DNA of 64,000 nucleotides from Methylomonas paludis (GTDB lineage Bacteria; Pseudomonadota; Gammaproteobacteria; Methylococcales; Methylomonadaceae): NCBI RefSeq assembly GCF_018734325.1, contig NZ_CP073754.1, forward strand, positions 2,170,001 to 2,234,000. Direction: 5' to 3'. The notes beneath the pieces were generated by a model. That model was not told the DNA's origin and made no database searches. It worked only from the letters and a program-made list of their open reading frames with translations. A program made the position numbers and the translations under genes. The stretch's first letter is position 1, and the number at the start of each line of letters is the position of its first letter. Shown here in pieces: positions 7,001-62,336 of the stretch.

Positions 7001-7074
7001 ACATGGCTTAAGCTTCGACTGTTTTTAAAGAGAAGTATTGATGATACTCCGCAGTTACCTATTTTAATAAAACC

Positions 7075-13757: not shown

Positions 13758-13760
13758 ACA

Positions 13761-13792
13761 AAGGCTTAGGTTATTAACCTAGGCCTTTTTTA
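13761..13792 (+). terminator. Terminator following tRNA-Thr on the island side
   Basis: AAGGCTTAGGTT pairs with AACCTAGGCCTT (one mismatch) around a 3-nt loop and is followed by a T-run. The island thus supplies a replacement terminator for the tRNA; the original-looking one is at 62303-62336. Confidence 0.8.
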
Positions 13793-29700: not shown

Positions 29701-30897
29701 CAAAACCACCCGATTATTGACCGCCAAAGGTTCGGCCAGACTAGTGCGCCAGTGACTGCCTCTATCACGACCTTCCAGAAACGGATAACGGTCAGGATCG
29801 AACAAGGAGCCACCATAGGCTTGCATCAACAAATCCTGATGATTTACCCCGCCATGCACAGCGCGGAAGCTTGCCAGCAGTCGTGTCCAAGCGTCGTAAC
29901 GGCGTTCCAACACTTCTTCACCATAACGGTCAGCGACTTCCTGCAATTGTTCCTGCAAGGTGGAGACGGCATAATTCTCATCATAGAGCGGCTTGCCTAG
30001 GTGTAACAGCTCGCGTTCTTCCGCGGAAAACAGAAATACCAACCGCATCATCACAGTCAGAGCGGCTTCATATTGATTTTTAGCGCTGACGCCTTGCAAT
30101 AAGTTTTGATTGTTTTCTCTGTCCAATGCATCAAAAGATTGCACCAATACTTCCACGGCTTCCCGTACCTGATTGCCCAGCTGGTCGGTAACTTCTTGCT
30201 GGTCTTGGGCGCTTTCCTTGAGCATAGCCAGTAAAGTGTTATCCGCGGCAACACCGAAAAAACGGTGGCTACCCAACAGGGAATGAAAAGCGCGGAGGGT
30301 AATCGCTTCATCCAGCCAGAGACTGGCATCCCATGTGGCATAGCCGGTGATTTCGCCACGCGGCGCATAGACCAGCAACCAATGTTCGCCATTGGTAACT
30401 AAACCCAAGGCAACCCCAGCACCGTGCAACAGTTCCATCATGCGGGTGGCGGGTGTGGCTTTCCAGTGTTTGCCAATCAGGGGTTTGTCGAGCAGTTGTT
30501 CCCGCGGATAACAGACAATCAGCAGTTGCGCCTGGCCGGCGTTTTCTGTACTTGCGGGTGACAGCAAAGCAAAATCCGGGCGCAAAGTTTCTGCCATTTC
30601 CGGCAGACTGGCTTGCAATCCTCCGGGTATGGCTTGACCTTGAGCAAGCAGTTCCGGCGGAAAGACTAATAACTGGCTAAGCACATGCTCTATCCAGGCG
30701 TGTTGAATGCCGGGCGCATTGGGTGCTTCCTGCCATTGCTGATAAACGGCGCGTAAGGCTTTGGCTTGTATCGGGTCACGGACATCCAGACCTTGCGGAA
30801 ACACCCGCAGTAACACTGGTAGCGAGACGAACGGGCCGGAAACCTCTACTAAAGACAACCAATCGGCATGATGGCGGGGAATACTGGGATGGCTCAT
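26755..30897 (-). CDS. drmMI: DrmMI, DISARM class 1 adenine-specific DNA methyltransferase
   Basis: 1380 residues, a large Type IIG/PglX-like enzyme. SAM-binding motif I MGSGAFLVQACRF lies near residue 612, CLYGVDINPMAVEMAKLSMW follows, and the catalytic NPPFVGGKKFS (N6-adenine type) is near 872. The N-terminal region and the C-terminal target-recognition part are long, as in the DISARM class 1 methylase. It should mark host DNA so DISARM spares it. ATG at 30897 overlaps the drmD stop (ATGA). The recognition site cannot be read from sequence. Confidence 0.92.
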   Translation of the reverse strand: MSHPSIPRHHADWLSLVEVSGPFVSLPVLLRVFPQGLDVRDPIQAKALRAVYQQWQEAPNAPGIQHAWIEHVLSQLLVFPPELLAQGQAIPGGLQASLPEMAETLRPDFALLSPASTENAGQAQLLIVCYPREQLLDKPLIGKHWKATPATRMMELLHGAGVALGLVTNGEHWLLVYAPRGEITGYATWDASLWLDEAITLRAFHSLLGSHRFFGVAADNTLLAMLKESAQDQQEVTDQLGNQVREAVEVLVQSFDALDRENNQNLLQGVSAKNQYEAALTVMMRLVFLFSAEERELLHLGKPLYDENYAVSTLQEQLQEVADRYGEEVLERRYDAWTRLLASFRAVHGGVNHQDLLMQAYGGSLFDPDRYPFLEGRDRGSHWRTSLAEPLAVNNRVVLHLLNSLQRLRSKSSAGGVTETRRVSFRALGVEQIGHVYEGLLDHTGVRAGEIILGIKCAAKKQAEIPLATLEDILAQGQDKLIDFLKEETGRSPAALRKALQSDLELDQHKLLIACHHDQDLFTRLLPFAALIREDSFERPLVVLAGSVYVTAGNTRRSTGTHYTPPSLTQPIVQHTLEPLVYQGPAEGWPREQWRLKTPKEILELKVCDMAMGSGAFLVQACRFLAERLVEAWENQERIHPGEVLISPEGEFSKAEPSERLIPDDADERIAIARRVVADRCLYGVDINPMAVEMAKLSMWLITIDKHRPFTFLDHAFKCGDSLLGITSVKQLEYFSLRPEETKQTSFATMNLWRHIDDAKTKREALEVMPSDTPDQIAAKVALFVEAEETVAKLNAAADVLIVLELQGLSDRAYDAKRDELVDHMMVYWAQGLSELQGYAQQQLGKRDCFHWALAFPEITGASGFHAFVGNPPFVGGKKFSASLGSDYKEYLVAHLAKGIRGSADLCAYFFLRIRQLLKEKGTAGLLATNTISQGDSREVGLDQLTEAGFSIPRAVPSRPWPGEATLEVAHVWLYRGVWAGDFVLNDALVAGITPFLTPPGRLHGKPYRLKANENKSFQGSIVLGMGFVLDPEEATELIVRNPKNKDCLLPYLNGEDLNSRPDQSPSRWVINFRNFPLNRTVDGAWVSANEEQRKQWLRAGYVPFDYPDPVAEDYPDLIEIVNERVKADRDILVAKGKQIHEYCFWKFWDRRDKLYTAIADKQLVLVVAATSRTLAFSMSEASPVFSHATYVFALDKPKHFAVMQSFIHEIWVRNLASSMKGDLRYTASDCFETFPFPATLDDLETIGECYCQYRQLIMQMRQEGLTKTYNRFHNTGETAADIAEMRRLHVEMDKAVANAYGWQDLNLNHGFHETKQGIRYTISEAVRLEVFDRLLELNHKHYAEEVAAGLHEKKVAKTSGSGGKRKTKATENSGQMDLF

Positions 30898-33800
30898 AGC
30901 TTACCCCCGGTAATTTCCAGCACAGCTTTACGCGGTATCAACCAGGTGACCGCCACCGGAAATAAACGGGCACTGGGGTTGGCGAAGCGGGCGCGGATAT
31001 GCTCAGCTTCGCGGGCGATTTCGTCCGGGATTTCCGCTACCCGACGGCGCAAGGCGGACAAATCGCGTTCATGCTGTTGCTTGCCTAGGTCGTCATCCAT
31101 TAAGAATATATCGAGTTGCTCTATTTGTTGCGGGGCCAGTTCGGCCTGAATGGAGCGGAGTAATTCAGTCATGATGGCAGTCATCTTGCTAACTTCGGAT
31201 TCTGCACGTTCTTGCAGAGTTTTTTCCAGGTTTTTGGTGCGCTCATTACAGCGAGCATCTAAGGCTGCCAGCAATGCCTCTTTATGATTGGGCCAAAGGT
31301 TTTGAAATCGGGCTTCAATTACGGCCGTCGCGGGAATTTCCGTAGTGGCTTCAAAGGCGGTTTTGGTTTGACCAACATTTAACCTGTTAAATTTACCACC
31401 GTTAAGAGCGCCACCGGCAATAATGATTTCTTCATGCAATCTATGGTTATCGCCGCCTAATACCACGATACGGCCATGGGCGATCAGCACCGGATGGCTT
31501 AAGGCAGAATCGTCGGTTATGCAGGCGGACACGCGGGATAAATGCTTGGTTTGACTATCCAGCGACCAGATTTCGGCGCGGAGCAGCCGCAAGCACATTT
31601 GCACCAGTCTGTGGTTAAGGTGCGCCAGCACCACATCGTCTCTGCCGGTGGCTAAGCAGGCATCAAATACTATGGGTCGGCGTTTTTTGCTGTGTGGATG
31701 ATCAAGACCATCGACGCAGTGCGCCCAGCTATTGGATAGGGCCGGCAAATGAAATACCGGGCAGGTTTTACGTAGACCGGTGGGATCGGGCCAGATACCG
31801 TCTATCTCTAGGGGGATTAAGGCGGGCTGCTCGGCCAGTTCCAGGCCGACACGCACAACATTTTCGACATGCTCAGGGGTAAGATTCAGGTCGTGCTGGG
31901 TCTGGTGTAACTGGCCGGCGAGTTTTTCCAGTTGTTCACGCAGTTTGCGCTCAAATTTGAGCATGCGCCGCACCGGTTCCGCGTCTAGTTCCGCGCGACT
32001 GGTATCCAGTTGCTTGCGTTTACCAAGCATGGCTTCTTCTACTTGCTGGGCAATCACCGGGCCGACTTTGCCAAGATCTTCGCGGATGGTTTCCACTTTT
32101 AGCGCGGCGCGCATCAGGAATTCCAAATCCGCTTCCAACTCCCCTACTTTGCCGACTGATTGCGCGGTTTTAAAGCCTTTGCCGACAAAATGGTGGATAT
32201 GCACTTCATCAGCTTTTTGTCCGTGCCTATCTACCCGGCCATTACGTTGCTCCATGCGATTAGGGTTCCAGGGGATTTCAACATGGATTAAGCGCGAACA
32301 GTAGTTTTGCAGGTTGACGCCTTCCGAGGCGGCATCGGTTGCCAACAGTATCCGCACCGTGGACTCTTTAGGGTGGGTCTGAAAAGCGGCTTTGATCGCT
32401 TCGCGCTGATCATTAGGCATACCGCCGTAAATCATGGCTAGCCGGTCATTTTCGGCAAATCCTTGTCTGGCAAACAAATCGAACAGCCATTTTTGCGTGG
32501 CGCGGTATTCGGTAAAAATGATAACGCGTTCTTCATTCCAGACACCCTCAGGACGTAAGGTGTTTTTAAGCCAGTTAATCAGGGTATCGGCTTTGCTGTC
32601 CGGGCGCTGGCTGTTCTTGACGGCGTAGTTACTGAGTTGCTGCAGCAGTTGCTGTTCTTCGGCAAGCAAGGGCGATAGCGCCTGACTGATGGAGCTGACC
32701 GCTTCGGCGGTTTCTAGTTCGTATTCTTCATCGTCGGCGTAATCGTCGGAAAAATCAGTGATGTCGCGGCTATAATTGATGGCTTTGGTTTTACTGCCAA
32801 CACTGGCAATATGTTTTTCCAAGGTACTGCCGAAGGCCGCCGGGGATGAAAAGAGACGCTTTTTGAGTAGTTTCAGCACAAATTCGGCGGCCATGCGTTC
32901 GCCGTCACTGGTCGCCTGTTTCAGTCGTAATTCCGAATAGCGTTGCAAGGCTTTATGGGCCTGACGCTCTTCCTCGGTATAAGGAACTTCCAGATGTTTA
33001 ACTATACGTTCGGCAAAGCGCCGGCTGCCGTCCCAGCGTAGCTTGAGTTCTGACTTCATGCGCCTGACCATCACTGCTTCGAGCTGGGCGCGATCCGGTG
33101 TGATGGCTCGGGCGAAACGCTGGCTGTCCAGCAATTCCAGCAGCGCGGCGAAACTTTCTCTGTAGCCGTTATGTGGGGTGGCGGATAAGAATAGTTTGTG
33201 TTCAAAATGCGGAGCTATTGTTCGCATGGCCTGGGTGCGCATGGAATCGGTCGCGTATTTGCCGCGGCCTGAGGGAGCGATGTTATGGGCTTCGTCGACG
33301 ATCAACAAATCGTAAGCGCGAGGGTAAGTTGGCTCATCACCCGCGGGCAAGGTTTCCCGAAATGAACGTAAAGGCCGTTCACGCTTGAGATAATCGGTAG
33401 AGGTAATCAGCCGCGGAAAATGCGTCCAGGGATTGACGTGTATACCGCGCTTACGTCGCAATTGGCTGATGGCGGCGCTATCGATAATACGGAATTCCAA
33501 GCCAAATTTATCGCGCATTTCTTCTTTCCACTGCACTTGCAAGGAAGACGGGCAGACTATTAACACCGAGCGTACCCGGTGGCGTAAGATCAGTTCCTGG
33601 ACTACCAAGCCGGCTTCTATGGTTTTGCCTAAACCAACGTCATCGGCAATCAGCAGATTGACACGCGGCATAGACAGCGCCCGGACTACCGGATCAAGCT
33701 GGTAATCGTCTACTTCGATACCACTACGAAATGGGGATTGCAGTGCGCGATCATCGGCTTGAGAGACTGCACCCCAGCGAACCGCATCCAGAAAAGCTTG

Positions 33801-34055
33801 AAGGCGTTTCGGGTGATCAAAGCTGTCTGGGTTAGGAAGTGTGGATTTTTCGTGAACCGAGGTTCCAGGTTCCAGTTCCCAAATTACTTGCAGTTCTTCG
33901 CCTAGACCATCGTCCTCTACTGAAGAAAGTTTAATAAGATGACTGGTTTTACCTGATTCTGTTACCAATCCAGGGGCTGATGGGATGATTTCAGTGACGA
34001 CGAAGGGGCGCTTACGCACGATGGCAAGCTGTCCGATTTCTGGTGTCGTCTGCAT
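30894..34055 (-). CDS. drmD: DrmD, SNF2-like helicase of class 1 DISARM
   Basis: 1053 residues. SNF2/superfamily 2 motifs: I ADDVGLGKTIEAG near residue 138, II LLIVDEAHN near 253, III LSATPHNGY near 290, and the C-terminal lobe IIFTEYRATQ, ATDAASEGVNLQ and NRMEQRNGRVDRHGQ. DrmD is the gene that, with drmMI, defines class 1 DISARM. It is first in the operon, so the promoter should be in 34056-34212. I see no unambiguous promoter boxes there. Confidence 0.92.
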   Translation of the reverse strand: MQTTPEIGQLAIVRKRPFVVTEIIPSAPGLVTESGKTSHLIKLSSVEDDGLGEELQVIWELEPGTSVHEKSTLPNPDSFDHPKRLQAFLDAVRWGAVSQADDRALQSPFRSGIEVDDYQLDPVVRALSMPRVNLLIADDVGLGKTIEAGLVVQELILRHRVRSVLIVCPSSLQVQWKEEMRDKFGLEFRIIDSAAISQLRRKRGIHVNPWTHFPRLITSTDYLKRERPLRSFRETLPAGDEPTYPRAYDLLIVDEAHNIAPSGRGKYATDSMRTQAMRTIAPHFEHKLFLSATPHNGYRESFAALLELLDSQRFARAITPDRAQLEAVMVRRMKSELKLRWDGSRRFAERIVKHLEVPYTEEERQAHKALQRYSELRLKQATSDGERMAAEFVLKLLKKRLFSSPAAFGSTLEKHIASVGSKTKAINYSRDITDFSDDYADDEEYELETAEAVSSISQALSPLLAEEQQLLQQLSNYAVKNSQRPDSKADTLINWLKNTLRPEGVWNEERVIIFTEYRATQKWLFDLFARQGFAENDRLAMIYGGMPNDQREAIKAAFQTHPKESTVRILLATDAASEGVNLQNYCSRLIHVEIPWNPNRMEQRNGRVDRHGQKADEVHIHHFVGKGFKTAQSVGKVGELEADLEFLMRAALKVETIREDLGKVGPVIAQQVEEAMLGKRKQLDTSRAELDAEPVRRMLKFERKLREQLEKLAGQLHQTQHDLNLTPEHVENVVRVGLELAEQPALIPLEIDGIWPDPTGLRKTCPVFHLPALSNSWAHCVDGLDHPHSKKRRPIVFDACLATGRDDVVLAHLNHRLVQMCLRLLRAEIWSLDSQTKHLSRVSACITDDSALSHPVLIAHGRIVVLGGDNHRLHEEIIIAGGALNGGKFNRLNVGQTKTAFEATTEIPATAVIEARFQNLWPNHKEALLAALDARCNERTKNLEKTLQERAESEVSKMTAIMTELLRSIQAELAPQQIEQLDIFLMDDDLGKQQHERDLSALRRRVAEIPDEIAREAEHIRARFANPSARLFPVAVTWLIPRKAVLEITGGKL

Positions 34056-35256: not shown

Positions 35257-35705
35257 ACCTCTTACAAAGCCTAAATAGGCATTACCAAAACACGTTCATG
35301 CTATTGCCGCAGACCTTTAGCCAACATTGCCATTGTGTAACGAATTTTTTTTCGTGTTGCTTGCGAAAAATCGCAAATTAGCGATTTATTGCAGAAGACT
35401 ATGAAAAATTTTCAAGGACAATAATCCAGGACAGTCCAAAGGCTTTGAAAATTGATTTCAGTTGGAATCAGCGACGAATTCGGCGCATTGGCATTTTAAT
35501 TTAATTTTTTTTAACCCTATTGCAGCTAATGGCAAATACGACATTTGCTGCAATCGTAATAGCAATCAATTTATGGACAATAGGCACATATCAAAACTAC
35601 TTAATAGGACGACTCATGACGCTTATCAAAATTTCGTTACTGCGGATCAAAAACTTTATTGAAAGCCTTCAAAAATATAACTTACCTGAAGTTAGGAGAA
35701 CAATT

Positions 35706-35921
35706 ATGTCCCGTCTACCCGAGGCTGGTTATCTGCGCTTGGTGCAAATCATCGGCAATTCCAAAGTGCAACCACCGATTCCGGCCATAATTCCGGTCAG
35801 TAAATCCACTTGGTGGGCTGGCATTAAAACCGGGCGCTATCCGGCCCCGGTGAAATTGGGGCCGCGTATCAGTGCTTGGCGGGTGGAAGACATTCGGGCA
35901 TTGATAGAGCGGACAGCCTGA
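35706..35921 (+). CDS. AlpA-family regulator (first copy)
   Basis: 71 residues with the AlpA/MerR-type winged helix seen in satellite and prophage regulators. The core reads ISKSTWWAGIKTGRYPAPVKLGPR-like here as PVSKSTWWAGIKTGRYPAPVKLG, followed by SAWRVEDIRALIE. AlpA proteins activate excision or integrase genes, or control mobile-element genes. I chose ATG at 35706 because TTAGGAG sits directly upstream; the frame is open further but that part is not conserved-looking. It heads the DUF927 module. A second AlpA-like gene is at 52250. Confidence 0.85.
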   Translation: MSRLPEAGYLRLVQIIGNSKVQPPIPAIIPVSKSTWWAGIKTGRYPAPVKLGPRISAWRVEDIRALIERTA

Positions 35922-35938: not shown

Positions 35939-36391
35939 ATGCTGCAAACCCATTATTACCCGAAATTGCCTCCCTTCGGTAGAGCCTTGGCTTGCAGACT
36001 GCAATCCGTTCATCCGCCCTGGCTGGTGGTGGTCTGCATTGGCCGCGATTGCTGGCAGCGGGCAAGACACTGGCAGAAAAATCAAACCCTATGGGCTTTG
36101 GTCATGCCGGCGTCCAAGCCGGCTTCCTGGTATATCTGGCAGGTGCTTGAACTGTGTGTGCTGATAGACTGGGATATAGGCCCGAGTCGTGATCAGATTA
36201 TTGAACTGGTGAAAATCCTATTGCTCTCCGGTGCTGAGCAAGTCACCGTCCGGCCTTGCTGGGTTGATGTCCGGCAACCGGCTGTCGAGTATGATGCGTC
36301 AAAACCGGTGGGTGAGCGTTGGGTTCAGGTGCGAGAGCAGATCGTCACCTATATTCGTTGTCCGCAGACCGGCATGGCGAGGGCGCTATGA
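35939..36391 (+). CDS. Hypothetical protein preceding the DUF927 gene
   Basis: 150 residues, Trp/Cys-rich first half (LVVVCIGRDCWQRARHWQ, LWALVMPASKPASWYIWQVLELCVLIDWDIGPS) and a basic C-terminal half. No domain recognised. The stop overlaps the DUF927 start as ATGA, and the gene lies 17 bp after alpA, so it belongs to the alpA-DUF927 operon. Confidence 0.65.
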   Translation: MLQTHYYPKLPPFGRALACRLQSVHPPWLVVVCIGRDCWQRARHWQKNQTLWALVMPASKPASWYIWQVLELCVLIDWDIGPSRDQIIELVKILLLSGAEQVTVRPCWVDVRQPAVEYDASKPVGERWVQVREQIVTYIRCPQTGMARAL

Positions 36392-38484
36392 ATGAATTTC
36401 TGCCAGAGACCATTGAGCTGGATTTTCCGGATGATAGCCACACTGCAGTGAGATATGGCAAAAAACCTCTGTCTGACCCTAAACCGGTTGATGGCTCGCG
36501 GATGGGGTTGGTAGTGCTTCCAGAGCCATTGCGGGGAAATACCTCGTTACCGCCGATAGACAAACTTGCTTTAAGTAAGGAACCTGCGTCAGCCAGTGCT
36601 GAGCCACAAAGTATTTTTAACATGGATGAATATACCGGTGTTACTGGTGTTACCGGTGCTACCGCCAGTGAATTCAAGGTTTCCAGCGCTAACCCGATAG
36701 TAACATCGCATGATTTTGGTGTTACCGGAATAGCTAGCGGAAACTCGATAGATCAAAACCAGTTTCCAGATCCCGGCAGCCGTCCTTGTTACCGTGTCTA
36801 TGAAACTGGCTGCGGCCCGAATTTAAGCTGTCCTCCCGGCGTGTATTATCACTGTTTTGGCAAGTCCGCCCCAAAAGCGCCGCCTATCCTCCATGATGTG
36901 CGCCTTTGCGGCGTCCTCCATGTCACCGCGATTGCCCGGAACAAACAAGGGCATGAATTTGGCTTGATTTTAGAATTCAAGGATAAACTCGGCCAGCCTA
37001 AACGTTGGAATATGCCTAGCCGTTTGTTGGGCGGTCGCGGCGATGAATTGCAGAAGGAATTGTTCGATAACGGCCTGGACATCAATTATCTGCAACGTAG
37101 TAAACTGGCCGACTACATCAGCCGGCAATCTCCGGCAAAAACGGTCTGGACAACATCAGTCTGTGGTTGGTTTGACCAGGTATTTGTATTACCGCATCGG
37201 GTGGTAGGGGATGCCACCGAAGACGTTTGGTTTCAAGCGGACTCAGCGCCAAATTTGGTTTCGAATGGTTATCGGGCGTCCGGTTCGCTGCTTGAATGGC
37301 AACATCAGGTCGCCCGGTTTTGTCTGGGTAATCCCTTGCTGTTGTTGAACGTCTCGCAAGCGTTTAGTGGCGCTTTACTGGGTAAATGCCAGTTGGACTG
37401 TGTGGCTGTGCATGTATTTGGTGGTTCGAGTCAAGGCAAAACCAGCGGCATGTTGCTGGCGGGTAGTATCTGGGGCGAACCGAAACGCTATAACCGCTCC
37501 TGGACGGCTACCCTGAATGGCTTGGAATCTGCAGCACTCAGCGTCAATGACGGTTTGTTATGCCTGGACGAAATGAGCAAGGCCGATGCCGCAGATGTGA
37601 GCAAATCCCTGTATATGCTGGCTAACGGCATGGGAAAACAGCGTTCTACTATCAGTGGAAAGACTAAAGCTTTGCACATCTGGCGGGTGTCGATCCTGTC
37701 CAATGGCGAAGAGTCGATAGAGGCGCATTTGCAGAAAGCCGGCCTATCCGCCAAAGCCGGGGAACTGGTGCGTTTTCTGCAGTTGCCGGTGTTTGGTCTG
37801 TATGGTGCTTTCAGTGAACTGCATGGCATGAAGTCCGGTCGGGAGTTTTCGGCGCTGCTGGCCCGCAATGCGGCGCACGTTCACGGTAGCGCCGGGCTGG
37901 CCTTTCTGGAAAAACTCACAAGGGATGAACGCGATTTCTCTGAATATTTGGATCGTTTTCTGGCTATCTTCGAAAAACAGCATGGCCCATTATCACCGCA
38001 AGAAGGCCGGGCGGCACGGGGATTTGCCTTGATCGGCCTGGCCGGTGAACTGGCTAGCGAATATGGCGTAACCGGCTGGCCGGAACGAGCGGCAATGGAT
38101 GCCGCGCTGGTATGTTTTGGCGAGTGGCGCAAACATCGTGGCCCCGGTGAGCTGGAGCCCAAAAAACTGATCGAAGCTGTCCGCCAGTATATTGAACTGT
38201 ATGGCGACTCACGCTTTACTAAAACGGATGACAATTCTCGTTTACATGGTGAACGTTCCGGTTACTGGCGTATGACAGACCAAGGCTACAAACAATGGTT
38301 GTTCAGCTCTGCCGGTTTGAAAAAGGCGATTGGGAATACGGATTTCCAGCCAGCCGTGCAACTATTGATCAAGGAAGGCGTGTTGAAACGTGGCCCAAAA
38401 AAGTACGTCACGCTGGTGAAAATCCTGGGCGTACCAGACTGGTTTTACGTGATTCAGCTTCAGGATGACGATCATGCTGGATGA
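36388..38484 (+). CDS. DUF927 domain protein, replication helicase-like
   Basis: 698 residues. DUF927 ATPase core: VWTTSVCGWFD near 255, Walker-A-like FGGSSQGKTSGM near 347, LLCLDEMSKADAADV near 390 and SILSNGEESIEAHL near 440. DUF927 proteins of plasmids and satellites look like primase-associated superfamily 3-type helicases for element replication. The N-terminal 180 residues hold a VTGVTGAT repeat made of 9-bp DNA repeats and a Cys-rich patch (GCGPNLSCPPGVYYHCFG). ATG at 36388 overlaps the previous stop. Confidence 0.82.
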   Translation: MNEFLPETIELDFPDDSHTAVRYGKKPLSDPKPVDGSRMGLVVLPEPLRGNTSLPPIDKLALSKEPASASAEPQSIFNMDEYTGVTGVTGATASEFKVSSANPIVTSHDFGVTGIASGNSIDQNQFPDPGSRPCYRVYETGCGPNLSCPPGVYYHCFGKSAPKAPPILHDVRLCGVLHVTAIARNKQGHEFGLILEFKDKLGQPKRWNMPSRLLGGRGDELQKELFDNGLDINYLQRSKLADYISRQSPAKTVWTTSVCGWFDQVFVLPHRVVGDATEDVWFQADSAPNLVSNGYRASGSLLEWQHQVARFCLGNPLLLLNVSQAFSGALLGKCQLDCVAVHVFGGSSQGKTSGMLLAGSIWGEPKRYNRSWTATLNGLESAALSVNDGLLCLDEMSKADAADVSKSLYMLANGMGKQRSTISGKTKALHIWRVSILSNGEESIEAHLQKAGLSAKAGELVRFLQLPVFGLYGAFSELHGMKSGREFSALLARNAAHVHGSAGLAFLEKLTRDERDFSEYLDRFLAIFEKQHGPLSPQEGRAARGFALIGLAGELASEYGVTGWPERAAMDAALVCFGEWRKHRGPGELEPKKLIEAVRQYIELYGDSRFTKTDDNSRLHGERSGYWRMTDQGYKQWLFSSAGLKKAIGNTDFQPAVQLLIKEGVLKRGPKKYVTLVKILGVPDWFYVIQLQDDDHAG
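36637..36663 (+). repeat. 9-bp tandem repeat GGTGTTACY (three units) in the DUF927 gene
   Basis: GGTGTTACT, GGTGTTACC, GGTGCTACC in tandem; a further half-copy lies at 36718-36728. The first 18 bp occur as an exact reverse complement at 38548-38565, past most of the gene. Confidence 0.85.
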
Positions 38485-38968
38485 AGTGATCAATTATTAT
38501 CTGCAATCAGCCGAAACGCTTGCAGTGACCGCTTTCCCTGAAAATACGGTAACACCAGTAACACCCGCCATAAATTCGGTATTACCGCTACAAGCCGCAG
38601 CAGCACAGGCGGTAATACCGGTAACACCTGAAAAACGAGTAACGCAAACAAAATCCAAAAACGAGCTGTTAGCATCGGATAAGGCAAAACTATTGTCATA
38701 CCTCGACGCCATCGGCGAAACTGATCAGGAAATGATCAATGATTTTTTGGACGAATGCGCCGGTAATCCGGAAATTTTGATATATTCCTTGCAGTTGGCT
38801 GAGGATACTTTACGGGTTAGGCGTGGCGATACCGCTGGCTTGGTGCGTTGCATGGGGTGTAAGCACTTAACTGTTGATACCTGTAATTTGTTTGGCTGGC
38901 GGATTGTGCTTGATAAATGGCGGCGGTGTGCGGATTTTGATCAAAATAGAGATGGACCGATAATTTAA
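38474..38968 (+). CDS. Small protein with C-terminal zinc-type cysteine cluster
   Basis: 164 residues (167 if ATG 38465 is used). ATG 38474 has AGGA 8 nt upstream and overlaps the DUF927 gene by 11 nt. The first third is a low-complexity VTPVTP/VIPVTP segment encoded by inverted copies of the DUF927 9-bp repeats. The last third has RCMGCKHLTVDTCNLFGW...WRRCADF, four cysteines likely to bind zinc. Function unknown; conserved position in the module suggests a replication or mobilisation accessory role. Confidence 0.65.
   Translation: MLDEVINYYLQSAETLAVTAFPENTVTPVTPAINSVLPLQAAAAQAVIPVTPEKRVTQTKSKNELLASDKAKLLSYLDAIGETDQEMINDFLDECAGNPEILIYSLQLAEDTLRVRRGDTAGLVRCMGCKHLTVDTCNLFGWRIVLDKWRRCADFDQNRDGPII
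38548..38628 (-). repeat. Inverted copies of the 9-bp GGTGTTACC repeat
   Basis: 38548-38565 is the exact reverse complement of 36637-36654. 38611-38628 is a further imperfect copy (GGTAATACCGGTAACACC). With 36637-36663 they bracket the ATPase part of the DUF927 gene. Confidence 0.85.
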
Positions 38969-39091: not shown

Positions 39092-39397
39092 ATGGCCAGA
39101 CCTTATTCACATACCCAGTTTTTCCGGAGGGTTCCCAATGCGCTGTTGGCGCGTTATTTTCAGGATAAGCATGGGGTTTTGCTGGACGTTGATTTTACTA
39201 AGCTAAAAGAAACTGAGGTAGAGCTTGTTTTTAAAGGGTTTAATGCCTTATCTGAAGAGAAACATTTGGCGATTGAAGCCGAATGCCAGAACATTGATGG
39301 CATGACCTGTAAAGGTGGTATTACCGCTTTGGCTGATGAGGCAGGTTTTCATCTGGATAGCCATTTTCTCCAGGCAATTGAAGATACTCATGGCTAA
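39092..39397 (+). CDS. Unknown protein, short paralogue of the next gene
   Basis: 101 residues beginning MARPYSHTQFFRRVPNALLARYF. It aligns with the first 100 residues of the next protein (YSTRSFFRQMPNAWLDLYF; LKETEVELVFKGFNALSEEKH versus MKETKPDALFDAWLELSDSQRKH). It ends where the longer protein continues, so it is either a truncated duplicate or a separate short subunit. The next gene's ATG overlaps its end by 8 nt, so the two are translationally coupled. Confidence 0.6.
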   Translation: MARPYSHTQFFRRVPNALLARYFQDKHGVLLDVDFTKLKETEVELVFKGFNALSEEKHLAIEAECQNIDGMTCKGGITALADEAGFHLDSHFLQAIEDTHG

Positions 39398-40604
39398 AAA
39401 TTATTCGACAAGGAGTTTCTTTCGGCAAATGCCTAATGCTTGGCTGGATTTGTATTTTAAAAGCAAAGGTATGTTTGTTGATTTGGATTTTTCAGCAATG
39501 AAAGAGACAAAACCGGATGCCCTATTTGATGCATGGTTAGAGTTATCAGATAGTCAACGTAAACATCTTGATGCCGAGTTGCTCGAAATTTTCGAGATGT
39601 GTAATGCTAAAGGATTTCAGGCGATCATTGATGAAATGCATTGGCAGTTTCGCAATTACCCAGAAGAAATAGTCGCTTATGTAGAATTATTATCCTCCTT
39701 GCCCAACCATTTTGAACGGGCGATGTTTACTTTTTTATCATTCACTATGTGCTGGCCAGGAGCGGTTCGGTTTCACCATGCCGATGTGCTTACCTACTGG
39801 CGTAAACGTAACCATCTACCTAATAAACCAGCAGCAGTCGATGAAGACAGCCTTAAACAATTAGCAATGGAGATTGCAAACTACTACCACACTATTGAAG
39901 GTCGAGGCAAAAACTGTGTAGTTGAGCCTTTTCGTCGTGGAGAGTTAGATTATTTCTTTGCTTATCCAGAAGATTACTCTCAACGAAGCATTGAATGGGT
40001 GGATGGTGACTTCAATCATCGCCCGCATAATCCTGCTCTTGAAGTGGTTTTTGTTTATTCACAAAAAGAAGGTTCTTTGGACTTGAATTTTCGCGGTTCC
40101 AAAAAACCATTGGAAATTTTACAGGGGATGTTCTGTACGACGATCCTTAAATTAAAGGAATTACCTCCTGACCCAAAAGATGTTCGGGTTTATAACCTAA
40201 ATCCTTTGCGATCTAAAAGTTTTAATTTTGTATATAGAATGAGTAGTCGTATTCAATCAGTGACAGTAAAAAAGCTAAGGTTGTCCTCTCGCCATAAGAA
40301 AGGTGATCGGATTACCGTTGAAGCCGATACCAATGATGACTCTAAAGCAATTTATGCTTTGTTGGAAAAATTAGGTAAATCAATTCCGCTACATCAATTT
40401 AATGTTTCCCAGGTTGAGCTTATAGCAATATTACAGTCCGATCCTGAAAAACCAACCAAGTCCATAACTATCCGGATTAGTCATCCAAATTCTTGTTCAT
40501 TGAAATATGATGAAGTAGATTTACAATTACGCAAAATGTTAGCGGATTCTGGAATTGAGCCTAAACCTGAATCCGAAATTGCTATCCCATGGGATAGCGA
40601 TTAG
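39390..40604 (+). CDS. Unknown 404-residue protein of a three-gene cluster
   Basis: 404 residues, no signal peptide or membrane segment, no nucleotide-binding motif seen. The N-terminal region (YSTRSFFRQMPNAWLDLYF, AMKETKPDALFDAWLEL) is shared with the preceding short protein. The middle is Phe/Trp-rich (FERAMFTFLSFTMCWPGAVRFHHAD) and the C-terminal region is beta-rich. ATG at 39390 fits the overlap with the upstream gene; the longer opening (39315) runs inside it. The next gene starts 2 bp later, so the three form one operon. I do not recognise the family; such pairs occur in accessory islands. Confidence 0.65.
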   Translation: MAKNYSTRSFFRQMPNAWLDLYFKSKGMFVDLDFSAMKETKPDALFDAWLELSDSQRKHLDAELLEIFEMCNAKGFQAIIDEMHWQFRNYPEEIVAYVELLSSLPNHFERAMFTFLSFTMCWPGAVRFHHADVLTYWRKRNHLPNKPAAVDEDSLKQLAMEIANYYHTIEGRGKNCVVEPFRRGELDYFFAYPEDYSQRSIEWVDGDFNHRPHNPALEVVFVYSQKEGSLDLNFRGSKKPLEILQGMFCTTILKLKELPPDPKDVRVYNLNPLRSKSFNFVYRMSSRIQSVTVKKLRLSSRHKKGDRITVEADTNDDSKAIYALLEKLGKSIPLHQFNVSQVELIAILQSDPEKPTKSITIRISHPNSCSLKYDEVDLQLRKMLADSGIEPKPESEIAIPWDSD

Positions 40605-40606
40605 TC

Positions 40607-41395
40607 ATGAGACCAGTGGACGCAGTGATTGAACTTTTTGACCGATTTGCAGCTTACCAAACCGAAAAGGTATTCATAACTGAAGCGGAACTGTCTGATT
40701 GGCCTATTGCTGCTTATTCGGCAATGAAAAAGCAACGTATCATCAGCAAGGCGAAAGCTGCAAAAAGTGCTGTGTGTCCTGGTTGTGAGCAAGAATGCAT
40801 TATGCCGGTACATGTGTTACCTGATGATTACCGAACTCCAGAACTGTTTGTATTATGCGATAAGCGTAGTGACACCAACCGGGTAAAGATAAAGGCAACA
40901 GATTTAATGCAATGGTATTGTAATGCCGAAGCGATATGCCGGTTTATTGCTGATGCTTTGGGTCTCAGGCGCACTGAACAAACTTCAGACTTGGCTAACC
41001 ATTGGTATATTGGCGTGGCTACCGGGAATAAACGCAGCCAAATGTTATGTTTGCAGGTTGATGATTTTTGTATGCTGGTGGCTGGGGGTAACGCTTTACC
41101 CCTTGCGGATTTTATTAGATTCGATAGTGAGCTTTATACACTGGATGTCGGTATGCTCACTAAGTTGGTCGACACTGCCAATACTGCTGATGATCGTTAT
41201 ACGCCAAGTACTGCCAAACAGGAGGTGCGAAAGCAGGAAACCCAAGAGATGTATAGGGATTGGCAGAAGGAATATAAGAAGTTAAAGCGTGCGAATACGA
41301 ATATGAAAGATACGGATATTGCTAGGAAGATTTCCCGAATGGTCATTGCAAGTGGTCGAAGTGCGGATACCATCCGGAAATGGATGGTGAAGTGA
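40607..41395 (+). CDS. Unknown protein with zinc ribbon and C-terminal helix-turn-helix-like region
   Basis: 262 residues. A CPGCEQEC motif near residue 63 suggests zinc binding. The N-terminal part (AELSDWPIAAYSAMKKQRII) looks like a winged helix, and the end (MKDTDIARKISRMVIASGRSADTIRKWMVK) reads like a DNA-binding helix-turn-helix of the kind fused to recombinases and regulators. It starts 2 bp after the 404-residue gene. The two-domain nucleic-acid-binding look and fixed coupling suggest it is the sensor or regulator of the cluster; that is inference. Confidence 0.6.
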   Translation: MRPVDAVIELFDRFAAYQTEKVFITEAELSDWPIAAYSAMKKQRIISKAKAAKSAVCPGCEQECIMPVHVLPDDYRTPELFVLCDKRSDTNRVKIKATDLMQWYCNAEAICRFIADALGLRRTEQTSDLANHWYIGVATGNKRSQMLCLQVDDFCMLVAGGNALPLADFIRFDSELYTLDVGMLTKLVDTANTADDRYTPSTAKQEVRKQETQEMYRDWQKEYKKLKRANTNMKDTDIARKISRMVIASGRSADTIRKWMVK

Positions 41396-52249: not shown

Positions 52250-52492
52250 ATGTCACATAGAATATTAAGACTTCCAGCCATTTTAAAAGAACGAGGCCGG
52301 TCCCGTAGCGCCCATTATCTCGATATTCAAAACGGCCTGTTCACCAAACCAGTACAGATTGGCACCCGTGCGGTCGGTTGGCCTGATGCTGAATTGACAG
52401 CCTTGAACGCAGCACGTATTGCGGGCAAATCTGATGAAGAAATCCGCGCACTGGTTGTAAAACTGGAAGCTGCACGCAAGACTGCGCTATAG
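52250..52492 (+). CDS. AlpA-family regulator (second copy)
   Basis: 80 residues: MSHRILRLPAILKERGRSRSAHYLDIQNGLFTKPVQIGTR is the AlpA winged-helix pattern with a variant recognition helix, followed by GWPDAELTALNAARIAG. Different from the first AlpA (35706). Upstream of and almost touching the primase-like gene (10 bp apart), so it leads the second replication module. Likely a regulator of excision or element replication. Confidence 0.85.
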   Translation: MSHRILRLPAILKERGRSRSAHYLDIQNGLFTKPVQIGTRAVGWPDAELTALNAARIAGKSDEEIRALVVKLEAARKTAL

Positions 52493-52502
52493 GGAGTATA
52501 TG

Positions 52503-55061
52503 ATGAATGCTCCCCTGACAGTTTTTCCCATCAGTACGCTGGAAACCGATAAAACCGCTGAAACCTATTTTGTAAGCAATGCAGATTTTTTGCAGACAGT
52601 GTTTGGTGGCGATGCAAAAGATACCAAGCCTATCGTAGTTGGGTTCTCTGGTAATCCTAACAAAGTCACTAAAGGCGTTTGGTTTGGCCAGGTGTATCAG
52701 CAAGGCAAGACAGTGTTTTCGGTAGATTCCAATAATTATTTTAGTCTGGCAGACTTTCATCCAAATGATTCTGGTGAATACCGGCGCAAAAAAACACAAT
52801 TTAATGCGTTGTATGCCGTGGTGTTGGATGATGTAGGCAGCAAGGTTGATATTGATAGGTTGATACTGTTGCCAAGCTGGCTACTGGAAACATCACCTGG
52901 AAATTATCAAGCAGGCTATCTGTTGGATGTACCCTTAACTGATGGCCTTTTGGCTGATCGACTAGTGAATGCCATTATTACTGCACAGTTGTGCGATCCT
53001 GGCAACAATGGCCCGCGGGCTCGCTTGGCTCGTTTACCAGTCGGGGTGAATGGTAAGCATAGCCCGCCCTTTGTTTGCAGATTGGAAAAGTGGAATCCTG
53101 AATTGCGTTATTCAGTTGAGGATTTGGTTGAGGGTTTTCAGTTAGAGCTGCTGGAAAGCAAACGCCCAAAACCTAAATCAAAAAAGGAAGTTCAGGAACC
53201 ACATGTGGAAGGTGATCCTGTTTGGTTGCCGCAGCCGGAGGTTAATCCCGTGCTAACGGCTTTGAAGCATAGCGGTTTGTATAAAACACCCTTGGGCACT
53301 GGTAAGCACGATATTACCTGTCCATGGGTTTCAGAACATACTGATGCGGTAGATAGTGGTACGGCCTACTTTGAGCCGGATGCCAACTGGGCGATCGGTG
53401 GTTTTAAATGTATGCATGGCCATTGTGCTGGTCGTAATATTCGCAATCTGCTGGACTATCTTGATTTGCAGGCTAATGCGGTACGTATGAAGCCTACTAT
53501 CCGGGTGGTGAATGGTGAAATCCATCGGGTTGTGGATGCTGCCGAACTGGAATTGGCAAAATCTGGACTCTATTATCAGCAAGGTGGATTGATCGTTACG
53601 GTAATCACTGATCCGGGTACATTTGAAACCCGAGTACAGGATGTCCGGCAACCAGCTTTGGTCAGAGCTTTGGCAGGCGTGGCACGCTGGGAAAAGTATG
53701 ATGCTCGTGGTCAGGATTGGGTGGCTACTGATCCGCCTGGCAGACATGCCGGTGTGTTGTATGATTCTATCGAGTACAAACATCTAAATGTCATCAAAGG
53801 ATTGACTCGTCAACCTTATTTGCGTGGTAACGGCAGCTTGATGACCAAAGCAGGATATGACCCTGATACCCAAATGTTTGGGATGTTTGATGCACGTGAG
53901 TTCTATGTACCAGAAAATCCTAGCCGTAAAGATGCTGAAGAGGCTTTAGCATTATTGAAAGGCCTGTTCGAGGAATTCAGCTTTGCTCGTGAAACCGATC
54001 TTGCTGCCGCACTCGCTGCCATTTTGACCGCCACGGTACGTCCGAGCTTACCCCATGCCCCGATGTTTCATGTTCGTGCCCACATGGTCGGTTCAGGTAA
54101 ATCTTATCTCTGTGAATTGTTTACCGCATTTGCTACACCTCGCAAAGGCTCACCTTCCAGCTTTCCTGCTGATGATGAGGAATGCCGCAAAATGCTGTTG
54201 GCAGAATTGTTGTGCAGTCCGGCAGTCATAGAGTTTGATAATTTGACTTGTGATTTGCTGGCGCATAAGAGTTTATGTACGGTGCTAACCTCTGAACATT
54301 TCAGTGGCCGTATTTTAGGTATTTCCAAAATGGCAACCGTGAATACCCGCACCTTGTTTTTATCCAGTGGTAACAATGTCGGGCCGATCCAGGATATGTC
54401 CAGACGTTGCATTACGATTAATTTATCACCTCAATGTGAAATACCGGCAACCCGTAATTTTAAAAGACCGGATTTGATACAGGATGTACTGAATCTGCGC
54501 AGTGTTTATGTCTGTGCGGCATTGACTATTATACGTGCCTGGATATTTGCCGGCAGACCAATAACTGAAGTCAAATCGGTGAACAGCTTTGGTGAATGGT
54601 CAGCACTTTGCCGACAACCCTTGCTTTGGCTTGGCTGTGCCGATCCAGCTGTATCGGTATTTGAAGCCATGGCTGAAGATCCAGAGCGCGAAAACTTGTC
54701 CCGGTTGTTGAATGCATGGCACCAGAGGTTTGGTAACAAGCCCACCATGGTGCGCCAAGCTGTCTTTGAGGCACCTAGAGTGTTTCTTCAACATAACGAA
54801 CTCAAAGAAGTGTTTGAAGATATTGCCGAGGAACGCGGGGAAATTAATCGCCGCAGACTGGGTCGCTGGATAAAACGTAATTCAGGTCGCATTGTGGACG
54901 GCCTGCGTTTTGTTGCTGCTCCCGGTACCCGTTCTGCTGAAGCCTGGATGGTTGAATCGGTTTTATCGGTTCCATCGGTTTCTGATCCTGCATATCAAAA
55001 AACTGTCAACAATACAGAAATTAATGCAGATGAATATGCCCGCGCCAGTCGCGGCGAATAA
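52503..55061 (+). CDS. Primase/helicase-like replication protein
   Basis: 852 residues. The N-terminal part (about 40-230) resembles RepB-like primases (AVVLDDVGSKVDIDRL, TSPGNYQAGYLLD, GPRARLARLPVGVNGK). A Cys/His region follows (ITCPWVSEHTD, CMHGHCAGRN), then a C-terminal ATPase with VGSGKSYLCELF near 530 and VIEFDNLTCD. This layout matches primase-helicase fusions of plasmids and satellites. ATG at 52503 has GGGAG 6 nt upstream; ATG 52500 is also in frame. It carries 9-bp-period repeats at both ends. Confidence 0.8.
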   Translation: MNAPLTVFPISTLETDKTAETYFVSNADFLQTVFGGDAKDTKPIVVGFSGNPNKVTKGVWFGQVYQQGKTVFSVDSNNYFSLADFHPNDSGEYRRKKTQFNALYAVVLDDVGSKVDIDRLILLPSWLLETSPGNYQAGYLLDVPLTDGLLADRLVNAIITAQLCDPGNNGPRARLARLPVGVNGKHSPPFVCRLEKWNPELRYSVEDLVEGFQLELLESKRPKPKSKKEVQEPHVEGDPVWLPQPEVNPVLTALKHSGLYKTPLGTGKHDITCPWVSEHTDAVDSGTAYFEPDANWAIGGFKCMHGHCAGRNIRNLLDYLDLQANAVRMKPTIRVVNGEIHRVVDAAELELAKSGLYYQQGGLIVTVITDPGTFETRVQDVRQPALVRALAGVARWEKYDARGQDWVATDPPGRHAGVLYDSIEYKHLNVIKGLTRQPYLRGNGSLMTKAGYDPDTQMFGMFDAREFYVPENPSRKDAEEALALLKGLFEEFSFARETDLAAALAAILTATVRPSLPHAPMFHVRAHMVGSGKSYLCELFTAFATPRKGSPSSFPADDEECRKMLLAELLCSPAVIEFDNLTCDLLAHKSLCTVLTSEHFSGRILGISKMATVNTRTLFLSSGNNVGPIQDMSRRCITINLSPQCEIPATRNFKRPDLIQDVLNLRSVYVCAALTIIRAWIFAGRPITEVKSVNSFGEWSALCRQPLLWLGCADPAVSVFEAMAEDPERENLSRLLNAWHQRFGNKPTMVRQAVFEAPRVFLQHNELKEVFEDIAEERGEINRRRLGRWIKRNSGRIVDGLRFVAAPGTRSAEAWMVESVLSVPSVSDPAYQKTVNNTEINADEYARASRGE
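52542..52568 (+). repeat. 9-bp-period repeat at the start of the primase-like gene
   Basis: GAAACCGAT, AAAACCGCT, GAAACCTAT in tandem. ACCGATAAAACCG (52545-52557) is the exact reverse complement of 54958-54970 at the gene's 3' end. Confidence 0.65.
54956..54982 (-). repeat. 9-bp-period repeat at the end of the primase-like gene, inverted
   Basis: ATCGGTTTT, ATCGGTTCC, ATCGGTTTC in tandem (encoding SVLSVPSVS), the reverse-complement family of 52542-52568. Confidence 0.65.
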
Positions 55062-55074
55062 AGGAGAACTACCC

Positions 55075-55887
55075 ATGCAAACTATTGAAAATACCCCTCT
55101 GGTCATAGCTTCCGAAACTACGGAACACCAAGCTGCTTTGCCAAACCCTAATTATGCGCCGGTTCGTTACAATGCGTTGAAACATGGCATTTTATCCAAG
55201 CTGGTTGTGTTACCACATGAAGACCGGAGTGAATTTGATACGCTGTTGGCTGGCTTAATCGAAGAACATCAACCATCTGGTGTTACTGAAATGCATTTGG
55301 TTGAAGAGCTGGCCAGTATTTTATGGCGTAAACGCCGGGTATTAATGGGTGAAAGTGCCACGCTCAACAGTAGTCTGTGGAATGTCGCCCATGAAAAAAG
55401 CAACAGAAGTACCGTTCGGGCCTCGGTGCCATTAGAGATGGGCTTATCAAACGATACCCACGATTTGGTGGAACTGCTGACTTCCAGCCCAGAAGAAATT
55501 GCCGAACGTCAGCGCGATGCAGAAACAGATCTTGAAGCCACCTATAAGGCGGCAAAGATTTTGCGTAAAGGTGGTACCAATGCCTATAAACGCGCCAGGC
55601 TGGCATTGACTGAGGATTCGCGCGATTGGTGGGATAGCCGTGTCAAGGAAGAAGAATATCCGGCAACGGCCGAAGGCTTGGAGGATTTTATGCACGACGT
55701 TTTATTCCCAATCGGCTACCGCATGGAGAAAGAAGCACGTTACCAACCGGCAATCCGAGCGCAAACTTTGGGTGAAGGCGTGCAAGCACATCGGTTAGAG
55801 AAGCTAAATCGCTACGAAACCCATTTGGACCGCAAATTTGAACGCACATTAGCCATGCTTTTAAAGCTAAAAGAGCTAAAAAACTAG
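55075..55887 (+). CDS. Hypothetical mobile-element protein
   Basis: 270 residues. YAPVRYNALKHGILSKLVVLPHEDRSEFDTLLAGL near 28-60 is a pattern I associate with accessory-element proteins near primase genes; the C-terminal half is helical and charged (YETHLDRKFERTLAMLLKLKEL). ATG at 55075 with AAGGAG 8 nt upstream; the frame opening at 54892 lies in the primase gene. No function known. Follows the primase by 13 bp, so same operon. Confidence 0.7.
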   Translation: MQTIENTPLVIASETTEHQAALPNPNYAPVRYNALKHGILSKLVVLPHEDRSEFDTLLAGLIEEHQPSGVTEMHLVEELASILWRKRRVLMGESATLNSSLWNVAHEKSNRSTVRASVPLEMGLSNDTHDLVELLTSSPEEIAERQRDAETDLEATYKAAKILRKGGTNAYKRARLALTEDSRDWWDSRVKEEEYPATAEGLEDFMHDVLFPIGYRMEKEARYQPAIRAQTLGEGVQAHRLEKLNRYETHLDRKFERTLAMLLKLKELKN

Positions 55888-56012
55888 GCAAAAAGGCAAC
55901 AGTTAAAAATGCCTGTAAGCCTTGGTATTTCTAGATTTAAGTAATTTTTTGCAAAACAAAGCGGTTAATTTACTTAATGATTTAGGCAAAATCTGGTGGA
56001 GAAAAAATTAAT

Positions 56013-56633
56013 ATGGGCGGCATGGGTAGTGGCAGACAAGATCAGGGTGGAAAAAATACCACCAATGACTATCACCATCTGGATATCAGGCGATTGCAGC
56101 GGGATGATTTACTCAGAACTGGGCTGTCCTACACCTTGAATTGGAGCCGAAATAATGAAAAAGTGGCGTCTATCCAAATTCAAACCCAAGACGATAGGCT
56201 TACTCTGGATTACCGCTACCGCAAGAATGGTGGAGACTGGAAAAACCAGAACTATTCGGTAATGCTGGATAGCACTGAATGCAGCTATGGTGGCAAACGA
56301 GTTTGGTTTAAGTGTCCGGCCAATGGATGCGGTCGGCGGGTGGCATTGTTGTATCTGGGTAGCTCTGGTATTTTTGCCTGTCGGCATTGTTATAAACTGG
56401 TTTATGAAAGTCAGCGAGAATCAGCGGATGATCGGTCATCAAGAAAGGCTGATAGGATCCGAGACAAACTGGCTTGGCAGCGTGGAATATTAAATCCGAA
56501 TGGTGACAAGCCCAAGGGTATGCACTGGAAAACTTATGACCGGTTAAAGGCTCAGCATGATGCTTATGTGGATGTTACCTTGAGGGGAATGGCGAAACGG
56601 TTTGGGTTTTTGGATAAGATTTTGGGGGAGTGA
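56013..56633 (+). CDS. Zinc-finger mobile-element protein, unknown function
   Basis: 206 residues. It starts MGGMGSGRQDQGG (a Gly-rich lead common in this group), has a beta-rich N-terminal half and a CPANGCGRR...FACRHCYKLVYESQ zinc ribbon near 100-130, then a basic helical end (RIRDKLAWQRGI, YDRLKAQHDAYV). Likely nucleic-acid binding. Proteins with this look are widespread in integrative elements. Own leader of 125 bp. Confidence 0.7.
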   Translation: MGGMGSGRQDQGGKNTTNDYHHLDIRRLQRDDLLRTGLSYTLNWSRNNEKVASIQIQTQDDRLTLDYRYRKNGGDWKNQNYSVMLDSTECSYGGKRVWFKCPANGCGRRVALLYLGSSGIFACRHCYKLVYESQRESADDRSSRKADRIRDKLAWQRGILNPNGDKPKGMHWKTYDRLKAQHDAYVDVTLRGMAKRFGFLDKILGE

Positions 56634-62100: not shown

Positions 62101-62109
62101 AATCAAATC

Positions 62110-62133: not shown

Positions 62134-62249
62134 ATGTTGGATAATTATACATCCTACCGGATTTAATTGGACAATGAAATTTTACATACTATTGTTTTTA
62201 ATAGATATAATGACTTGTATTGGATGACAATGGACTAATCGCCGTGTGG

Positions 62250-62300
62250 TTTGTAATCAGCCGGTCAGGAGTTCGAATCCCCTCACTAGCTCCATATAAA
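62250..62300 (+). repeat. attR: 51-bp copy of the tRNA-Thr 3' end
   Basis: Identical to 13707-13757. Only the 3' part of the tRNA is here, so no second functional tRNA is made. Confidence 0.95.
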
Positions 62301-62302
62301 TC

Positions 62303-62336
62303 AAGCCCTTAGATGGTAACGTCTAAGGGCTTTTTT
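62303..62336 (+). terminator. Original tRNA-Thr terminator (chromosome side)
   Basis: AAGCCCTTAGA pairs with TCTAAGGGCTT, followed by a T-run. Before integration it would have followed tRNA-Thr directly. Confidence 0.85.

Follow-up and report, generated by a model that had tools for sequence, protein, structure and literature searches.

The stretch of DNA analysed here, referred to as the window, comprises 64,000 nucleotides (nt) of Methylomonas paludis (GCF_018734325.1, NZ_CP073754.1 positions 2,170,001-2,234,000, forward strand). It carries three successive genes, P1, P2 and P3, within a genomic island (Table 1). P2 and P3 are an undescribed, tightly linked gene pair, which is the main subject of this report. 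A sequence check confirmed the three frames as real, as an earlier note on this DNA had held, together with their coordinates, an overlap of exactly 8 nt between P1 and P2 and a gap of exactly 2 nt between P2 and P3. The longest frame of P2 begins with a GTG at 39315. As the relatives align from the ATG at 39390, the length of 404 amino acids (aa) was retained.

Relatives of P2 were found in 4 of 61 genomes near that of the window, in 14 of 369 of the class and in 27 of 398 of the phylum, its own genome being counted in each. A total of 82 loci was collected, 77 from species genomes and five from viral contigs. The phylum of some of the 77 is unsure because many are metagenome bins. The five viral loci came from an alignment-based scan, the single-sequence scan of the same contigs giving none, and tblastn returned no match for P2 in phage and plasmid records or for P3 in phage records. 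P2 is intact in 61 of the 82 loci, with at least 300 nt downstream in 59 of these. By profile count, P3 lies directly after P2 in 58 of the 59, and the two genes overlap by 4 nt in 44 of the 58. The exception is L061, where no frame matches P3. The fixed coupling which the earlier note ascribed to all three genes is therefore a property of P2 and P3; the P1-P2-P3 arrangement was seen only in the window. No publication on the pair was recognised in the literature searched, judged mostly by title and abstract and with subscription journals mostly outside the search.

The same note had called both proteins unrecognised, and family searches agree. In Pfam at E<=0.01, no family matches more than one of 59 aligned P2 proteins and none matches any of 43 aligned P3 proteins. 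The window proteins P1, P2 and P3 have no NCBIfam match. PADLOC has no match for P1 or P3 and a weak one for P2 (LmuA, E 0.016). All 59 P2 proteins match phrog_37634, a PHROG of unknown function and the only one at a solid E-value. Membership of P2 in a named family was rejected, as Pfam, NCBIfam and PADLOC gave nothing solid and PHROGs only this entry.

P3 contains a zinc-type pattern, as previously noted, and its residues C57, C60, C64 and C84 are invariant in all 43 aligned rows, the window included. The structural model of P3 (predicted local distance difference test, pLDDT, 90.7) is of mixed alpha/beta type with a predicted helical C-terminus, a region that varies between lineages. The N-terminus appears to be winged helix-turn-helix (wHTH)-like, on our reading of sequence and secondary structure. 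P3 thus looks like the nucleic-acid-binding partner that had been proposed, here as a predicted DNA-binding protein.

The genomic context was surveyed across the 61 intact loci, with cluster labels of our own drawn from sequence, Pfam tallies and position. Greedy gene calling picked some antisense frames, so some neighbour labels, including the divergent and co-directional counts given below, may be wrong. The recurrent order is integrase, cargo, P2, P3, AlpA, a primase-position gene or HTH8-int7, c13 and GSGR, and it varies by locus. A recombinase cluster is present in 36 of the 61 loci (20 of 29 among those with at least 18 kb of DNA), an AlpA or HTH8 gene in 30, and a cluster labelled primase-type (4, 10 or 15) in 29. 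The label of cluster 4 is one of position only, because its window member has no Pfam or PDB match. Clusters of hsd/SNF2 type lie 5′ of the pair in 22 loci and 3′ of it in one.

The nearest 5′ genes (n=56, at least 180 aa) encode mainly restriction- and helicase-type domains: N6_Mtase 12, ResIII 9, Helicase_C 8, Eco57I 8 and SNF2 7, among the 25 of 57 families listed. PADLOC matched these neighbours to DrmD-type and BrxH-type helicases, the matches overlapping on the same proteins. For the nearest 3′ genes (n=52), the domains among the 25 of 40 families listed include Toprim_3 9, integrase 6, Toprim_4 5, RepB primase 5 and DUF3987 4, with one SWI2_SNF2. In L024, from the genus of the window, Cas3, Csd1 and Cas7 genes abut the pair; Csd1 is a marker of type I-C. 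The pair is commonly situated between restriction- or helicase-type cargo on its 5′ side and an AlpA/primase-position/integrase module of integrative elements on its 3′ side. This neighbourhood survey found the pair coupled and tied to defence-type genes. The possibility that the families are housekeeping accessories found mainly outside defence contexts was examined and not borne out. In L048, a large Roc-COR-LRR-type protein (3658-7686) probably follows P3, its domains being assigned by inference from a pooled scan.

A conserved site precedes P2 in many loci. Regions of 160 nt before P2 were compared in 71 loci, with the threshold (13.7) set above the best score of 1,420 shuffles. L113-L116 were dropped from the count by hand (L114 shows the site by eye), as were loci with the P2 start less than 160 nt from the locus end. 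A site of about 38 nt, with the consensus GATGTACTGCAATGTACAGTAAAGTCCAGCATAATCCA, exceeds the threshold in 40 of the 71 regions and begins 63-86 nt before the P2 start in all 40. Since the model was trained on the same 40 sites, further checks were made. The information content is 30.2 bits, whereas 30 retrained shuffles reached 10.6 at most, and the spread of position is 6 nt, compared with 31 or more. Held-out halves gave 17, 18, 18 and 23 of 36, and 1.08 Mb of sequence contained one further site. Among further genomes, L024, L027 and L028 have the site (L027 and L028 being the same places as L042 and L080), and L030 is below threshold.

The site is associated with gene orientation, being found in 27 of 33 loci with a divergent nearest 5′ gene and in 6 of 22 with a co-directional one (p 7e-5; 55 of the 71 loci). 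A divergent ribbon-helix-helix (RHH) gene (RHH_5, 3e-5, just under the cut-off) adjoins P2 in 15 of the 71 loci, some copies being weak or broken, and 14 of these loci have the site. The left 11 nt of the site are kept where the RHH gene is present and mostly decayed where it is absent (p 1.8e-6). The right part is kept in either case (p 0.41). The left box is therefore probably a target of the RHH protein, and the right part probably that of a constant factor, either P2, P3 or RNA polymerase. The RHH protein was rejected as sole reader of the site, as 26 of the 40 site-bearing loci lack its gene.

The structural model of P2 (pLDDT 86.5, predicted template modelling score 0.68) is helical to residue 133, followed by beta-rich parts. 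The top seven Foldseek matches in the PDB (E 0.003-0.025, probability 0.80-0.97) comprise four chains named CENP-N and three given as chain N of CCAN complexes, which we took to be CENP-N. In the VIA comparison, ranks 1-12 are CENP-N/Chl4-type chains with 4-9% identity, which cover the model from residues 56-67 to 261-393; their subunit is named in three titles and was otherwise assigned by chain letter and residue range. Their Z scores are 6.7-8.0. VIA cautions that models lacking a clear match usually reach Z 7-8, and the fold call therefore depends on one fold class heading the list. Ranks 13 and 14 are RdgC (Z 6.6 and 6.2; 216-218 residues at a root-mean-square deviation of 7.6-8.0, model residues about 129-394), and rank 15 is Iml3 (Z 5.9). 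These rows represent few independent proteins. RexA is not among the PDB matches listed for P2, and a viral structure library gave nothing decisive, with three uncharacterised phage proteins at E 0.004-0.02. By sequence, no PDB chain was found by profile at E<=1, and the Pfam matches of the 59 P2 proteins at E<=0.01 include neither CENP-N/Chl4 nor RdgC (PF04381). The predicted fold is, at a borderline level, like that of CENP-N/Chl4, RdgC and Iml3, a class known for DNA binding.

It has been reported, in the available part of PMC11077077, that RexA, RdgC, IML3 and CHL4 have a common fold, that DNA binding by RexA and RdgC is non-specific, and that IML3-CHL4 touches centromeric DNA. CENP-N is described in the available part of PMC5777823 as a helical PYRIN domain and a CLN-HD, both contacting DNA. 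According to the same text, CENP-L without the front part of CENP-N failed to bind nucleosomes.

P1 resembles the N-terminus of P2 (blastp E 1e-13 and 4e-15, 35-39% identity), and these E-values make a chance resemblance untenable. Over its full 101 residues it matches P2 of L094 and L118 at 60% and of L098 at 59%; the match to the neighbouring P2 covers 83 residues only, at 39% identity. A tree built from 64 N-terminal rows places P1 within one clade, of 12 rows (99/94), and the window P2 within another, of 48 rows (99/97). The tree has few columns, as the tool warned, and the branches of these two clades are well supported. The stop codon of P1 falls within the first codons of P2, which places the junction at the P2 start. 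P1 is a relic and corresponds to the N-terminal quarter of a P2 that belongs to a different, well-separated clade. A tandem or internal duplicate of the window P2 is ruled out by the better whole-length match elsewhere and the separate clade, and the earlier idea of a partial internal duplication was abandoned. Its companion, a duplicated "sensor" N-terminus as part of a system, also fails, P1 being such a relic; the coupled trio was seen only in the window. No P1-like frame stands directly before a full P2 in the 82 loci surveyed.

Other broken copies of P2 were observed. It is split into two frames in L051, L084 and L090, and in L075 a short broken N-terminal piece lies about 2.3 kb upstream of a full P2. 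Fragments like the P2 N-terminus and similar to P1 occur in L032, L033, L038 and L075, those of the first three near type I restriction or methylase-like genes. This suggests that broken P2 ends are not rare. Prophage-like loci contain distant forms of P2 together with a 318-aa CxxC protein; P2 was recognised as a gene call in L025 and as a DNA match in L034-L036. The L025 copy adjoins a serine recombinase and genes resembling XRE and ImmA, these labels having been given partly by eye. In L039 (4862-9543), a distant P2-like gene and a 305-aa partner adjoin ThiF/E1-like and JAB-like genes, as judged by eye, and are perhaps a ubiquitin-like defence set.

Table 1. Features of the window discussed in the text, in window coordinates.
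Feature	Position	Strand	Remarks
P1, 101 aa	39092..39397	+	P2 N-terminal fragment of another clade; AAGGA upstream of ATG
P2, 404 aa	39390..40604	+	Predicted helical N-domain (to ~133), then beta-rich part resembling CENP-N/Chl4, RdgC, Iml3; 59-row alignment
P3, 262 aa	40607..41395	+	N-terminal wHTH-like part (our reading), zinc-type C57/C60/C64/C84 site, C-terminal helices; 43-row alignment
P1/P2 overlap, 8 nt	39390..39397	+	From the sequence
attL-like repeat	13704..13769	+	tRNA-Thr 3′ end (gene 13676-13751) plus the bases after it; direct repeat of 66 nt with 92% identity to the copy at 62247-62312
attR-like repeat	62247..62312	+	Right end of the 48.5-kb island holding the trio
Tyrosine integrase by attR	60787..62106	-	Pfam Phage_integrase 3.7e-10; cluster 2, as integrases of other P2-P3 elements
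DISARM DrmD-type helicase	30894..34055	-	Nearest tested defence cargo; PADLOC DrmD 1425 bits
AlpA-like protein (weak)	35520..35921	+	Starts co-directional run to trio; Pfam Phage_AlpA 0.0075, below cut-off
DUF927 primase/helicase of mobile element	36388..38484	+	Pfam DUF927 8.7e-69; phrog_1139 DNA primase 2.4e-61
167-aa protein	38465..38968	+	Between primase and trio; no significant family match (Pfam, PADLOC, PHROGs, NCBIfam)
AlpA/primase-position/c13/GSGR module	52250..56633	+	After P2-P3 in other loci; clusters 3, 4, 13, 6 common to P2-P3 loci
AlpA	52250-52492	+	Phage_AlpA 3.7e-9
Primase-position gene	52500-55061	+	Cluster 4; no Pfam or PDB match
c13	54892-55887	+	No Pfam match
GSGR	56013-56633	+	No Pfam match

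The features looked for in an integrative island, namely a tRNA attachment (att) repeat, a tyrosine integrase and AlpA, are all present around the trio. Other genomes of the genus (e.g. G002, G013 and G032) contain several closely spaced copies of this tRNA end, a pattern like that of an integration hot spot. The order within the island is DrmD-type cargo, AlpA-like gene, DUF927, the 167-aa gene, P1, P2, P3, other genes and the AlpA/primase-position/c13/GSGR module, and the island looks composite. Of the defence island named in the earlier note, the DrmD-type helicase, a single-gene PADLOC match, was confirmed. P2-P3 sits behind the run of AlpA-like and DUF927 genes and the truncated P2 (P1), and the AlpA-like gene clusters with the one that follows P3 in L044. 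Translation of P2 in the window is probably coupled to P1 via their overlap, to judge from the reading frames, and the pair is probably expressed by read-through with translational coupling.

Further genes were observed in the island. A 699-aa protein with a hydrophobic, membrane-like C-terminus is encoded right after P3 (41577-43673) and has no significant Pfam or PADLOC match. An nSTAND1 NTPase with tetratricopeptide repeats (47183-49753; Pfam 1.4e-92) is of defence type. An AAA_21/AbiEii-type ATPase (56802-58055) belongs to the same cluster as a gene on the cargo side of L054, another P2-P3 element. Two 456-aa minus-strand frames (50275-51645 and 58571-59941) share a 300-nt DNA repeat (86%) and are probably insertion sequences.

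The best reading of these observations is that P2-P3 is neither a housekeeping accessory nor a demonstrated defence system in its own right. From the adjacency of the two genes, their context and the conserved site, we infer a DNA-binding control or clamp pair of defence-carrying mobile elements, a proposal that we put first and hold tentatively. The possible DNA-gripping fold of P2 would allow the pair to control or protect such elements. P2 and P3, carried by integrative elements that ferry defence systems, would be co-translated. P3, with its winged-helix-like part, zinc-type site and variable C-terminus, would recognise DNA, and P2, with an RdgC/CENP-N-like fold, would clamp or coat it, probably as a dimer. 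Both may act at or from the upstream site, in a control region common to the divergent neighbour, and so set the expression of the pair itself. The expression of cargo and early element genes would probably also be set by P2-P3. The outcome would be that restriction-type cargo is kept from release at the wrong moment, e.g. when the element enters a new host or is excised. The "defence or regulation system" of the earlier note is partly supported. Stand-alone defence fits less well, because the usual place of the pair, between cargo and the AlpA/primase-position module, favours a backbone or control function of the element.

Several observations weigh against a control or clamp pair. An above-threshold site is missing from 31 of the 71 upstream regions, and the p-values for site and context overstate independence because the loci are related. 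The same site precedes P3 proteins with different C-termini (L042, L045 and L101), so the C-terminus of P3 may not read it. The site could be a mere strong promoter or the target of a host factor, with the RHH protein as a candidate in 14 site-bearing loci. The window itself has no such site: consensus patterns with up to 3 mismatches found none, and the best full-model score, 11.1 at 4624, is below 13.7. A short half-pattern has 10 matches in the window against 5.7 expected. On the structural side, Foldseek gave no match at E<=0.001 for the model of P2 or of P3, the maximum VIA Z score of P2 (8.0) is in the usual range named above, and the best for P3 is 5.0. Sequence kinship between P2 and RdgC was looked for and not found (hhalign probability 0.2 against 17 RdgC sequences). 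The nearest 5′ gene is also not always of defence type, with resolvase 4 and phage integrase 3 among the families listed.

The alternative ranked next, which we consider unlikely but a genuine contender, is an RdgC-like replication or recombination accessory. Here the pair would bind the excised or replicating element and keep RecA or nucleases away from it, acting in concert with the AlpA/primase-position module. Its direction and order agree with those of AlpA and the primase-position gene in many loci, primase-type clusters (with the positional label of cluster 4) are joined by Toprim and RepB-primase domains among the 3′ genes, and the RdgC rows of the VIA comparison cover P2 residues 129-394. 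However, the pair is accompanied by either tyrosine or serine recombinases, its primase-type genes differ or are missing, and it is strongly tied to the divergent neighbour. The host genome also encodes its own RdgC, and the sequence profiles of P2 and RdgC do not match. Ranked third, and improbable, is a stand-alone anti-phage system like lambda RexA, in which P2 would sense phage or recombination DNA and P3 relay the signal. The RdgC/Iml3/Chl4 fold of RexA, as given in the available part of PMC11077077, would suit this, as would the adjoining defence-type genes and the co-directional position of the pair behind hsdM-hsdS-hsdR in L069. Against it, neither P2 nor P3 has an effector Pfam domain, the only PADLOC match is the weak one to LmuA, and the cargo changes while the pair stays.

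Two further explanations are more remote. That the window pair is a silent remnant left in a composite island seems a slim chance: P2 and P3 are open, full length and aligned end to end with relatives, and site-less co-directional relatives (e.g. L046) retain both frames, even though the P1 relic, the missing upstream site and the distance of about 11 kb to the AlpA module, which elsewhere follows P3, would fit, the intervening frames being transposase-like by eye. Least probable of all is a role as a partition clamp, by which the excised element would be retained when cells divide. This role would agree with the resemblance of P2 to the centromere proteins CENP-N/Chl4 and with the nearly constant number of one such site per locus where present, but the elements are integrated in the chromosome and, on our reading, the site contains a -10-like sequence.

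Mobile elements spread defence systems, and how they avoid harm from restriction-type cargo on entry or excision is little understood. A nearly invariant, unnamed pair at the boundary of cargo and element, together with a conserved control site, offers a concrete way into this question. P2-P3 may also serve as a marker for further defence cargo, the genes 5′ of P2 being candidates. If the RdgC/CENP-N-like fold holds, P2 would represent a new branch of a DNA-clamp superfamily common to bacteria, phages and kinetochores. A bolder and rather doubtful conjecture is that P2 is a bacterial relative of CENP-N/Chl4, with the same helical and CLN-HD layout, which forms with P3 an operator-anchored DNA clamp, by which mobile elements carry and control toxic defence cargo. 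If true, the DNA-gripping subunits of kinetochores would have kin in the mobile elements of defence islands.

In comparison with known systems, P2 is predicted to resemble RdgC from residues ~130 to 394, over most of the length of RdgC. Unlike RdgC, it has an additional N-terminal helical domain and P3 as a partner, and no sequence relation is detectable. CENP-N/Chl4 and CENP-L/Iml3 of the inner kinetochore are the best structural matches, and the layout predicted for P2, a helical domain followed by a CLN-HD-like domain, may be that of CENP-N as set out in the available part of PMC5777823. In contrast, P2 is a protein of bacterial mobile elements, and the match is structural, borderline and low in identity. 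The lambda RexAB system is also a two-gene set, whose RexA is a DNA-binding phage-exclusion factor of the RdgC/Iml3/Chl4 fold class (PMC11077077, in part). P3 does not have the appearance of the membrane protein RexB; its model is of mixed alpha/beta type and it lacks a Pfam match. BrxR/CapW and RptR are small regulators which, in the available parts of PMC9122601 and PMC12255303, are tied to a variety of defence genes and have repeats located at a promoter or overlapping it. They belong to other protein families, P2 and P3 having no WYL or other Pfam match, and P2-P3 consists of two proteins, encoded on that side of a divergent cargo operon where the element lies. The AlpA/IntY islands I55 and I44 of Pseudomonas integrate at transfer-messenger RNA (tmRNA), and the core genes named in the available part of PMC12595487 (RadC, YqaJ, Gp2-like and HTH) exclude P2-P3. 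Like the elements described here, those islands combine an integrase with AlpA and carry defence systems, which in I44 include DISARM (PMC12595487).

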